Assembly: GCA_949959185.1 (NCBI GenBank)
Contig: CATLIX010000020.1
Span: 1 to 52,549 of the forward strand
DNA from: an uncultured Eubacterium sp.
Lineage (GTDB): Bacteria; Bacillota; Clostridia; Lachnospirales; Lachnospiraceae
DNA length: 52,549 bases
Direction of reading: 5' to 3'
Below are positions 22,219-38,477 of the stretch, one piece after another. The position numbers and the translations under genes were made by a program. Under the pieces are notes generated by a model. The model saw only the letters and a list, made by a program, of their open reading frames with translations. It ran no database searches and had not been told where the DNA came from. Within the stretch, counting starts at the first letter, position 1; every line of letters begins with the position of its first letter.

Positions 22219-22311
22219 TTTATCTTATAGGAAATACTGTGTCACTATGAAGTACTAAAGTATATAGATTTCCTATAAGATAAAGCCCTCCGGGCGGGAT
22301 GCACAGCTCGC
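22219..22311 (+). repeat. Dispersed palindromic element, copy A (palindrome plus GATGCACAGCTCGC tag)
   Basis: A 17-bp inverted repeat (22219-22235 with 22268-22284; arm core TTATCTTATAGGAAAT) is followed after 13 bases by GATGCACAGCTCGC (22298-22311). The same 14-mer sits next to the long palindrome at 30815-30895 in the opposite orientation. The arms differ in sequence but share a TAnAGGAAA core. This is a repeat family seen directly in the sequence; its mobility or function is unknown. Confidence 0.65.
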
Positions 22312-22427: not shown

Positions 22428-22436
22428 TGGTAGAAT
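22428..22436 (+). promoter_or_regulatory. Extended -10 element upstream of the HD gene
   Basis: TGG-TAGAAT, within TATGGTAnAATATGC shared with the copy at 36701-36715. No good -35 is visible, so it would depend on the extended -10. Confidence 0.4.
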
Positions 22437-22438
22437 AT

Positions 22439-22482
22439 GCCTTGAGGAGGGACCCGGCAAAGCCGGGAGGAGACCTGAAGGC
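22439..22482 (+). ncRNA. Candidate structured RNA element, copy 1 (leader of the HD/GH31 run)
   Basis: Outer stem GCCTT (22439-22443) with AAGGC (22478-22482); inner stem CCCGGC (22453-22458) with GCCGGG (22462-22467). The strands between are GAGGAGGGA and AGGAGACCTG, and AGG can pair with CCT inside them. The copy at 36714-36765 has identical connecting strands but different stems that still pair perfectly. Four base pairs change compensatorily. I do not recognise it as a known riboswitch. It ends 33 bases before the HD start codon. Confidence 0.6.
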
Positions 22483-22515: not shown

Positions 22516-22968
22516 ATGAATCAGACAGAGGGAAAGAGGATGATAGCGGAAATCATCCATGAATTGAGCAGGGAAGGACGCATCAGGAAATCCCGGAGTT
22601 TTATACAGCATGGAAACACTTCGGTGTATGAGCACAGTGTCCGGGTGGCATATTATAGCCTGAAAGCAGCAGAATTTCTGCATTTAAACGGTCACAGAAA
22701 AGAACTGGTACGGGGCGCTCTGCTGCATGATTATTTTCTTTATGACTGGCATGAGAAAGACAGAAGCCACAGCCTTCACGGATTCCGTCATCCCTTTACG
22801 GCCCTCAGAAATGCCAGTGCAGATTACAGGCTTACCAGGCGGGAGCAGAACATCATTCTTCGCCATATGTTTCCGCTGGTTCCCATACCGCCCGCCTGTC
22901 CGGAAGGATGGATTGTGTGTATGGTGGACAAAGGCTGTTCTCTTTATGAAACGGTGCGCAGGCGGTGA
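22516..22968 (+). CDS. HD-domain phosphohydrolase
   Basis: A 150-residue HD-superfamily protein with H40 in VYEHSVRVAYY, the HD dyad at 71-72 (GALLHDYFLYDWH), H in RHMFPLVP and D in MVDKGCSLYET. It is similar to the small HD hydrolases of Clostridia often annotated as phosphohydrolases; the substrate is unknown. The start region is ambiguous: the ATG at 22516 follows AGGAATCAG, while the ATG at 22540 follows GGGAAAGAGG. Its leader contains the structured element at 22439. The GH31 gene follows after 45 bases. Confidence 0.85.
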   Translation: MNQTEGKRMIAEIIHELSREGRIRKSRSFIQHGNTSVYEHSVRVAYYSLKAAEFLHLNGHRKELVRGALLHDYFLYDWHEKDRSHSLHGFRHPFTALRNASADYRLTRREQNIILRHMFPLVPIPPACPEGWIVCMVDKGCSLYETVRRR

Positions 22969-36604: not shown

Positions 36605-36633
36605 ATTTTGTCATATACTGGCAGGAAAATTAT

Positions 36634-36659
36634 GGTATAATATCGACAGATATTATACC
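36634..36659. terminator. 11-bp perfect hairpin after the ATPase operon (contains a promoter-like -10)
   Basis: GGTATAATATC (36634-36644) pairs with GATATTATACC (36649-36659) around GACA. GCCC-GAAT-GGGC follows at 36660-36671. No T-run follows, so terminator is a weak call; it may be an operator, since TGG-TATAAT lies inside. Confidence 0.4.
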
Positions 36660-36680
36660 GCCCGAATGGGCAAGGGTACC

Positions 36681-36711
36681 ATACCATATCACGGGGTGAT
36701 TATGGTATAAT
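36681..36711 (+). promoter_or_regulatory. Extended -10 promoter inside a palindrome, before the M3 peptidase
   Basis: TGG-TATAAT (36703-36711) is an extended -10 with no good -35. ATACCATATCAC (36681-36692) pairs with GTGA and TATGGTAT (36696-36708, one T bulged), so the -10 itself is part of an inverted repeat. This suggests repressor control or an alternative RNA fold. Confidence 0.5.
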
Positions 36712-36713
36712 AT

Positions 36714-36765
36714 GCACTGAGGAGGGACCCATCGTTTGCCTTGAGATGGGAGGAGACCTGAGTGC
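36714..36765 (+). ncRNA. Candidate structured RNA element, copy 2 (leader of the M3 peptidase)
   Basis: Outer stem GCACT (36714-36718) with AGTGC (36761-36765); inner stem CCCATC (36728-36733) with GATGGG (36745-36750), with an 11-base loop. The connecting strands GAGGAGGGA and AGGAGACCTG are identical to those at 22444-22452 and 22468-22477, while the stems differ by compensatory pairs. It ends about 39 bases before the peptidase ATG. Confidence 0.6.
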
Positions 36766-36803: not shown

Positions 36804-38477
36804 ATGAAATTTTCAGAAATGCCATATCAGAGACTGAACCGGGAAGAAACAGAAGCCGCCATGCAGGAACTGACACGCCGTCAGAAAGAGGCGTCCGGCG
36901 GTGAAGAACAGTTTGAAATCCACAGAGAGTACTACAAACTGGCTGACCATATCAAAACCTGCAGGATTCTGGCTATGATACGCCATGACATCAACACTGC
37001 CGACGAATATTATGAGAAAGAACAGGAATTCTATGACGAAGTGCAGCCTGTGCTGGACAATCTGGACAACGAATACCACAAAGTATTGTTTGAGTCCCCG
37101 CACCGGACGTATCTGGAAGAAAAAATCGGGCCGGTGGCTTTCAAAAACATGGAACTGGATTTTAAGTCCATGGACGAAAAGCTGATTTCCCTGATGCAGC
37201 AGGAAAATGCTCTGGTCAGCAGATACTCCAAACTGATTGCCTCAGCGGAAATCCCTTTTCGCGGGGAAATCTGCAATCTGTCACGGATGGGCAAATTCAT
37301 GTCAGATACGGACCGGGACACCAGAAGGCAGGCCTGGAAGGCAGTCAGCAACTATTTTATGAGCGTAACCGGGGAAATCGACAGTATTTATGATGAAATG
37401 GTAAAGAACCGTACGGAGCAGGCCCGGCAGATGGGCTGTGAGAATTTTATTCCGCTGGGGTACTGCCGAATGCACCGGAATAGTTATGGGCAGGCGGAAG
37501 TGGAACATTTCCGCAGGCAGGTGAAGGAATATATTGTGCCTCTTGCAACGAAAATCCATGAAAACAGGCGGAAACGGCTGGGCGTGGAGCAGCTTTCCTA
37601 TATTGATAACAATATGTATTTTGCAGAAGGAAATCCGGAACCGAAAGGTACTCCGGAGGAGATTCTGGCCAAAGGGCAGGAAATGTACCGGGAACTCTCT
37701 CCTGAGACGAAAGAATTTTTTGATTTCATGATGGAAAATGAACTGCTGGATGTGCTGGGCAGGAAAAATAAAGTGCAGGGCGGTTATATGGATTACCTTC
37801 CGGAATTTGAATCTCCCTTTATTTTTGCCAATTTCAACGGAACCAGCGGCGATGTGGATGTGATTACCCATGAATGCGGACATGCTTTTCAGGGGTATCT
37901 GGTGCGGAAAGAAGAGATTCGTGAACATCTGGATATTACCATGGAGACAGCGGAAATCCATTCCATGGCCATGGAATATTTTACGGAACAGTGGATGGAA
38001 CAGTTTTTCGGCAGCCGGGCAGAGGATTACCGTCTGATGCACCTGGAGGACGGAATATGCTTTGTGCCTTATGGCTGTATGGTGGACGAGTTCCAGCATA
38101 TTATCTATGAACATCCGGAACTGACGCCGGAAGAACGGAAACAGGTGTGGAAGAAGCTGGAGCAGGAATACCGTCCCCATATGAATTACGAGGATGATTC
38201 CTTCTTCGGAAAAGGAGGCTGGTGGCAGCGGCAGGGCCATATTTTCCAGATGCCCTTTTATTACATTGATTACTGTCTGTCTACCGTATGCGCCCTCCAG
38301 TATAAAATGAAAATGGACTTGAATTATAAAGAAGCCTGGGAGAGTTATCTGGCTTTATGCAGAATGTCGGCCCGGAAGTTCTACGTGCCCATGCTGGAAG
38401 AAGTCGGACTGAAAAATCCCTTTGCGGACGGATGTATCCGGGAGTTGACGGAGCATTTTGAAAAAATCATACTGTAA
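36804..38477 (+). CDS. M3 family oligoendopeptidase F-type
   Basis: The 557-residue zinc peptidase hydrolyses cytosolic oligopeptides. The metal-binding motif is ITHECGHAFQGY (H356, E357, H360), with the third ligand in METAEIHSMAMEYF. The YRPHMNYEDDSFFGKGGWWQ region near the C-terminus is characteristic. The ATG at 36804 follows GGAGGA; an in-frame GTG at 36762 would begin inside the structured leader and is unlikely. It has its own leader element and precedes the OpuC operon by 54 bases, so partial read-through is possible. Confidence 0.95.
   Translation: MKFSEMPYQRLNREETEAAMQELTRRQKEASGGEEQFEIHREYYKLADHIKTCRILAMIRHDINTADEYYEKEQEFYDEVQPVLDNLDNEYHKVLFESPHRTYLEEKIGPVAFKNMELDFKSMDEKLISLMQQENALVSRYSKLIASAEIPFRGEICNLSRMGKFMSDTDRDTRRQAWKAVSNYFMSVTGEIDSIYDEMVKNRTEQARQMGCENFIPLGYCRMHRNSYGQAEVEHFRRQVKEYIVPLATKIHENRRKRLGVEQLSYIDNNMYFAEGNPEPKGTPEEILAKGQEMYRELSPETKEFFDFMMENELLDVLGRKNKVQGGYMDYLPEFESPFIFANFNGTSGDVDVITHECGHAFQGYLVRKEEIREHLDITMETAEIHSMAMEYFTEQWMEQFFGSRAEDYRLMHLEDGICFVPYGCMVDEFQHIIYEHPELTPEERKQVWKKLEQEYRPHMNYEDDSFFGKGGWWQRQGHIFQMPFYYIDYCLSTVCALQYKMKMDLNYKEAWESYLALCRMSARKFYVPMLEEVGLKNPFADGCIRELTEHFEKIIL

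Follow-up and report, generated by a model that had tools for sequence, protein, structure and literature searches.

Both stem-loops in the window (the whole stretch of 52,549 nt from an uncultured Eubacterium sp. that was analysed here) are likely to be copies of a hairpin-forming repeat dispersed in Lachnospiraceae, i.e., of a non-autonomous element resembling REP or BOX sequences that was probably once mobile. The repeat is real, and it is structured, dispersed, and precise to the base at its left ends.

The earlier note on this DNA had described the two stem-loops, and both are present where it placed them and pair as it said (Table 1). Between the copies, the outer stem changes from GCCTT/AAGGC to GCACT/AGTGC and the inner stem from CCCGGC/GCCGGG to CCCATC/GATGGG, that is by two plus two double changes under full pairing, and the apical loops differ as well (AAA in copy 1, GTTTGCCTTGA in copy 2). 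As also reported there, TATGGTAnAATATGC precedes both copies and a start codon follows each; 33 nt lead from copy 1 to the start codon of an HD-domain gene (ATG 22516), 38 nt from copy 2 to that of a Peptidase_M3 gene (ATG 36804). The connecting strands of 9 and 10 bases exist, but they are not wholly unpaired: AGG pairs with CCT beside a G.G mismatch, and once this 3-bp helix is counted, the true internal loop is AGGGA/AGGAGA, a 5/6-nt purine loop. RNA folding gives a minimum free energy of -22.9 kcal/mol (z -4.6) for copy 1 and, for the same structure in copy 2, of -20.6 kcal/mol (z -2.9), and DNA folding yields this structure for both strands of copy 1 and for the top strand of copy 2. The 11-base loop of copy 2 equals a spacer plus the start of a second 5' unit, as in other copies, and is a remnant of such a unit. 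A covariance-model scan of the window with filters off returns just copies 1 and 2, both of which are part of the model.

Table 1. Coordinates of the repeat copies and of neighbouring features in the window
Feature	Coordinates	Strand	Details
Repeat copy 1	22439..22482	+	outer stem 22439-22443/22478-22482; G.G mismatch 22444/22477
Repeat copy 1, inner parts			AGG/CCT 22445-22447/22474-22476; purine internal loop 22448-22452/22468-22473
Repeat copy 1, tip			inner stem 22453-22458/22462-22467; loop 22459-22461
Repeat copy 2	36714..36765	+	outer stem 36714-36718/36761-36765; AGG/CCT 36720-36722/36757-36759
Repeat copy 2, inner parts			internal loop 36723-36727/36751-36756; inner stem 36728-36733/36745-36750; loop 36734-36744 (GTTTGCCTTGA)
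Extended -10 (TGG TAGAAT)	22428..22436	+	ends 2 nt before copy 1
Extended -10 (TGG TATAAT)	36703..36711	+	ends 2 nt before copy 2
HD-domain protein gene, downstream of copy 1	22516..22968	+	PF01966, E 4.1e-6
M3-family peptidase gene, downstream of copy 2	36804..38477	+	PF01432, E 1.2e-24, scan from upstream GTG 36762
Different repeat with near-perfect palindrome GGTATAATATCGACAGATATTATACC at 36634-36659	36629..36713	+	another extended -10, 70 bp upstream

Repeats of other kinds are found nearby. Upstream of copy 1, at 22219-22284, the window has a perfect inverted repeat of 17 nt (TTTATCTTATAGGAAAT) whose arms are 32 nt apart. The M3 gene of G024 (L435) is preceded by a sequence that by eye resembles it (TTTCCTATA...GATG..CAGCTCGCGG), so that this may be a third dispersed repeat. 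In other genera (L238, L243, L252, L255, L256, L258, and L259), the hairpin is often directly followed by a second, covarying-looking hairpin module that reads, by eye, roughly GCGCAG..CGAACnnnGTTCG..CTGCGC.

In the window's genome (G000), the pattern GAGGAGGGA..AGGAGACCTG has 7 matches in 6 places, versus none for the reversed pattern. With up to 3 mismatches, the 3' half-site gives 39 matches versus 1 reversed, and the 13-mer of the 5' half-site, with up to 2 mismatches, is a weak probe (79 versus 48). A covariance model of 23 hand-chosen, aligned copies from this genome detects 33 copies in it and 39 in a second strain (G461). Among 99 relatives scanned, 18 carry copies; within the genus, own genome included, 16 of 28 genomes have 1 to 43 copies and 12 have none, and outside the family, the 38 genomes scanned from the same order gave no match. 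A covariance-model search for further copies in Lachnospiraceae had been proposed in the earlier note, and such copies occur in 38 of 397 genomes of a family sample, corresponding to 35 of 334 genera. In a phylum sample, 4 of 398 genomes have copies, three of them within the family and one outside it with a single weak match (E 5.8e-5); these large samples were searched with stricter filters, at which weak matches are lost. At least 106 stretches with copies were detected in a scan of named collections, and Lachnospiraceae bacterium is the title of most among the 80 loci listed, the others being assigned to Eubacterium, Roseburia, Butyrivibrio, Lachnoclostridium, Petralouisia muris, a Clostridiales bacterium, a Clostridium sp., and one Bacteroides sp. 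metagenome-assembled genome. The statement that the hairpin matches no known riboswitch agrees with the Rfam searches: no family reaches its gathering score in the window, and six loci of the same genome (E up to 1) yield three matches at chance level, to miRNA/lncRNA models and in each case below the gathering score. A phage origin was considered and rejected, as the exact pattern has no match in viral_contigs, a search that degenerate copies would escape. No description of the repeat was found in the literature searched, a body from which most subscription journals were absent.

The stems covary throughout the family. In the alignment of 23 copies from the window's genome, 96.8% of the cells are paired, 7 of 14 pairs are changed on both sides, and 54 double-change cells compare with 17.6 after shuffling, while at most 50% are paired when the partners are slid. 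Records from the named collections extend this to other genomes: in 110 distinct rows, 97.6% of the cells are paired and there are 208 double-change cells versus 59.3 shuffled, in an alignment that was fitted to the covariance model, which favours pairing. The compensatory changes noticed between the two window copies are real double changes, but they are now read as differences between members of a repeat family. Across 231 distinct sequences, the AGG/CCT pairs, the CCC/GGG pairs, and most of the purine loop are nearly invariant, and the outer five pairs, the fifth excepted, and the distal inner pairs vary freely, with 73 combinations of outer strands among the copies. A fixed core, TGAGGAGGGR-CCC ... 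GGG-AGGAGN-CCT, is set within freely covarying outer and distal inner stems. The core measures 44 nt and the element about 41-80 nt, with apical loops that vary widely in length. Position 6 is G.G in 177, A-T in 33, and G.T in 16 of the 231 sequences, and the 3' loop strand AGGAG becomes AGGAT in 30 of them, which by eye seems to accompany A-T at position 6. Mismatched stem pairs are more often G.T than A.C (54 versus 32 outside position 6, 16 versus 0 at it); this lean counts against reading the element as a repeat, since a top-strand RNA would produce it. Copies often form arrays, with the 5' arm (24 nt) and the 3' arm (22-23 nt) each repeated on its own. Quasi-palindrome correction as sole cause of the covariation does not fit, because the asymmetric loop remains imperfect.

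The left end of the element is sharp and follows approximately 5'-A[T/C][T/A]T. This was determined from 372 copies in 236 matched loci, a set in which high scores are favoured, which collapse into 188 border-distinct clusters, 181 of them with at least 60 nt of upstream sequence. A strict -10 hexamer (TA...T, at least 5/6) ends exactly 2 nt upstream in 49 of the 181 clusters, compared with 0-5 clusters for each of the remaining offsets between 0 and 40, and a TGn extension is present in 44 of the 58 clusters that have a strict hexamer at offsets 0-4. After collapsing related flanks, the peak amounts to 33.2 of 123 groups, and in the window's own genome it comprises 12 of 27 clusters. No -10 is found at offsets 0-4, even at 4/6, in 101 of the 181 clusters, a few of which are starts of inner array units whose array does follow a -10 (L075, L082). 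Base -1 is T in 91% of the 80 promoter-like and in 87% of these 101 other clusters, and the latter have T or A at -2 in 94% and A at -4 in 57% of cases. Target duplications were sought as direct repeats at 176 borders, although the mobile unit may in truth extend beyond the 3' border used: 4-nt repeats occur once (shuffled mean 1.0), 5- and 6-nt repeats never, 2-nt repeats at chance level, and 3-nt repeats at 13 borders versus 7.7 shuffled (shuffled maximum 15). A MITE of a DDE transposon was rejected, since the 176 borders together give no sign of a 4-6 nt target duplication. In several genomes of the genus (L106, L127, L135, L143, L152), the hairpin is followed by a tail of about 25 nt (about CGGnnCCAAAGAAGTAAA, by eye), with tandem periods of 69 nt (L106) and 66 nt (L127), and the true mobile unit may include this tail.

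The proximity of the -10 box has consequences for what is transcribed. Sigma-A transcription usually starts about 7 nt after the -10, so RNA from the adjacent promoter would begin near element positions 5-7 and, with the start site deduced in this manner, should lack the outer 5' strand. The caveat in the earlier note that the outer 5' strand precedes the expected start can thus be extended to a general rule for part of the family, the 49 of 181 clusters mentioned above. Of 68 copies that begin exactly 2 nt downstream of a -10-like hexamer (at least 4/6), 60 retain the full set of five outer pairs, as do 95 of 101 non-promoter copies and 12 of 12 in a small rest, all of them better-scoring copies picked by a structure-based model. 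As the outer stem remains just as well paired at places where its 5' strand is not expected in the transcript, covariation between copies is no proof of a regulatory RNA.

An alternative to the repeat is nevertheless a cis-regulatory RNA, i.e., a stem-loop in 5'-UTRs or between cistrons that would act on the mRNA stability or translation of many genes through a protein, or the ribosome, bound at its purine internal loop, and that would have spread by being useful. Kept pairing and strong covariation are what it would predict, but besides the equal conservation of an outer stem expected upstream of the start, RNA from position 6 on folds little or no better than shuffled sequence (z -1.65 for copy 1, z -0.03 for copy 2). 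Similarly, 77 of the 78 clusters of the promoter class and 78 of the 100 others have the start of a same-strand ORF no more than 400 nt away, as such an RNA would require, but the ORF calls are loose: the end of an opposite-strand ORF falls into the same range in 51 of the 78 and 62 of the 100 clusters. In 94 of 130 clusters, element and downstream gene share a strand, in 26 the gene is on the opposite one, and in 10 none was called, in a count that is not deduplicated, has 21 of the 130 clusters flagged inside an ORF, and depends on crude ORF calls, which made L108 and L171 'opposite' although their orthologue L104 is 'same'. This same-strand bias counts against the repeat, since an RNA leader would also give it. 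Yet of six loci tested, four copies (L149, L150, L189, and L254) are antisense to both of their Pfam-supported neighbours, and the two other candidates (L087 and L140) gave no Pfam match. Half-units of the 5' type occupy the place where the ribosome-binding site of the HD gene should be in G005 and G017, and stems stay mostly paired at sites shared between species, both of which would suit a cis-regulatory RNA; the absence of copies from 12 of 28 genomes of the genus and the lack of a gene theme would not. Altogether, we regard this explanation as unlikely.

A ligand-sensing 5' leader, as suggested in the earlier note, finds even less room in these data. The asymmetric purine loop conserved between covarying stems is reminiscent of a metabolite riboswitch, but the proteins encoded downstream show no common functional theme: 117 of 148 listed ORFs, 31 having been left out by hand, comprise 189 Pfam families, none of which occurs in more than 6 proteins. 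The lack of a theme speaks against a riboswitch, and a riboswitch with a gene theme was rejected on this tally; nor does the tally hint at a passenger transposase, none being present among the commonest 25 of the 189 families. Patchy presence, unit numbers that vary between strains, arrays of half-units, the lack of an Rfam match, the antisense copies, and an expression platform that was not noticed, though not systematically searched for, point in the same direction, so that a riboswitch is extremely improbable.

Genomic settings are diverse also in other respects. Ten loci were scanned for tRNA and tmRNA genes because they looked tRNA-adjacent; at six of them (L238, L243, L252, L255, L257, L259) the copy directly follows such a gene on the same strand, one (L251) is head to head with a tRNA/tmRNA gene, and at three no gene was found. 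In L194, a copy replaces the tip of an L10-leader hairpin, with 55 nt in the place of 5 model positions, and L253 is a candidate for a second insertion of this kind (25.6 bits versus a gathering score of 44). Positions next to tRNA/tmRNA genes and inside another cis-regulatory RNA are unfavourable both to a ligand-sensing leader and to a cis-regulatory RNA. In 14 clusters, an ORF coming from upstream terminates within the element, its stop codon being a T[G/A]A that occupies positions 5-7, with at least one doubtful case (L257, beside a tRNA). A TwoAYGGAY RNA (RF01731, 68.5 bits) lies at L180:2113-2282, on the same contig stretch as a repeat copy. At L137, L142, L179, and L196, copies are situated within a longer repeated unit, with upstream sequences 77-95% identical and all from one assembly (CATOPL).

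Comparison of strains and species shows how the sites change. All 30 matches of G461 that have loci (of 39) fall in sequence matching G000 loci, the reverse comparison being incomplete, and the fact that no movement between the two strains was observed counts against the repeat. In contrast to the sites, unit numbers do differ, in 8 of 14 aligned G000/G461 pairs whose flanks are 98-100% identical: array lengths differ by 24 or 96 nt (24-nt 5' units), by 46 nt (two 23-nt 3' units), or by 39, 41, 48, or 86 nt, and one case is complex. Among the remaining pairs, one differs by a 28-nt unit of adjoining sequence, and five have substitutions or nothing in the array. Between related loci with a shared border (24 pairs, which are not independent as some share a locus), changed stem pairs comprise 36 double, 1 one-sided, and 12 broken changes, and L078 and L109 have changed stem pairs even with flanks 98.7% identical. 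To judge from these alignments, the changes at orthologous sites suggest exchange of whole modules rather than stepwise compensation; the double changes could still reflect selection on pairing.

Sites are often common to different species, with flanks 67-99% identical, and this again counts against the repeat, since it could mean retention for function. The promoter beside L104 was found in 28 of 29 genomes of the genus. Following a similar -10, four of these 28 rows have the hairpin (G009, G015, G022, G025), three have a different repeat (G000, G461, G014), and twenty have other sequence, with possible remnants by eye in G003 and G021; for G010 the stretch shown missed the site. The different repeat in G000 and G461 (L295, L296) and in G014 (L311) is a close relative of the GGTATAATATCGACAGATATTATACC repeat of the window. 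In the relative G024, whose M3 protein is 91% identical, the region before the gene has the first of the window's two -10 boxes, the one in the GGTATAATATCGACAGATATTATACC repeat, and a short leader, with neither the second -10 nor the hairpin. In G010, the HD gene is preceded by a short spacer with no hairpin; full copies are present there in G002 and G017.

In its type, as far as analogy goes, the element appears closest to REP and BOX repeats. Both an imperfect-stem hairpin and many extragenic copies, which are features of REPs, are found here, and with the GTAG and CGTC super-families the element shares short palindromes, arrays, alternative complementary stems, and a possible role as RNA. 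REPs usually exceed 100 copies per genome (PMC2817692), compared with 33 here. Unlike REPs, the element has a T-rich 5' flank and no GTAG tag at the hairpin foot, neither in the upstream logo of 181 clusters nor in the first three bases of the 3' foot; it strongly prefers the position 2 nt after a -10 box, and its half-unit arrays have one orientation. TnpAREP is described as processing folded single-stranded REP DNA (PMC8266576), and CGTC REPs are reported to lack a dedicated transposase (PMC3733652).

A REP element mobilized by a RAYT/IS200-IS605 Y1 transposase that has since been lost from the window's genome would explain the imperfect hairpin with its internal mismatch region and the insertion after a short motif without a 4-6 nt target duplication. 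However, Y1 transposases (PF01797) occur in 59 of the 99 relatives, i.e., in 8 of 18 carriers versus 51 of 81 non-carriers; the 10 carriers that lack PF01797 include G000. That no mobilizer was found in these searches counts against the repeat as well. The covariance model finds no copy in 30 fetched Y1 loci, and the 5' flank is a T-rich tetranucleotide instead of GTAG. A RAYT/IS200-like mobilizer was rejected because there is no positive correlation with PF01797 in the 99 genomes and none of the 30 Y1 loci has a copy, and the Y1-mobilized REP with later loss is very improbable.

The small interspersed structured repeats BOX, RUP, and SPRITE of Streptococcus pneumoniae are thought to be parasitic; they transpose slowly and are co-transcribed, and one of them is fused with T-box riboswitches (PMC3049150). 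Going by description, the element studied here is alike in kind only: it is a modular structured repeat with a variable number of inner units and a patchy presence in related species, and it differs in that its left end is tied to -10 boxes and to the ends of genes. Specific insertion in a set orientation at sigma-A promoters, to which its placement is comparable, is reported for the TnGBS and p-MULT families of promoter-targeting transposons, which are DDE elements of 1.1-52 kb that insert upstream of promoters (PMC3942029); the repeat, in contrast, is a 44-nt hairpin downstream of the -10 without a detected 4-6 nt target duplication.

For a repeat of REP or BOX kind, a plausible course of events would be that whole hairpins were inserted at places like gene ends and the 3' border of -10 boxes, being recognised as folded single strands by a putative mobilizer that may since have been lost. 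Inserted copies would become stem-loops of untranslated regions, sometimes donating a stop codon or a ribosome-binding site, and might alter mRNA stability or translation without being built to sense one ligand. A bolder version, which we offer as a tentative and rather doubtful proposal, is that a non-Y1 enzyme inserts the hairpin, in the form of a folded DNA single strand, into the non-template strand of the open promoter, within the transcription bubble and 2 nt past the -10, and that transcript 5' ends are thereby rewritten genome-wide.

If the reading as a dispersed repeat is right, some members of the Lachnospiraceae, a main bacterial family of the gut, carry a structured repeat that is placed with base precision at promoters and gene ends. 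It would represent a new insertion specificity and, by changing the length and structure of untranslated regions between strains, a source of variation in gene expression.
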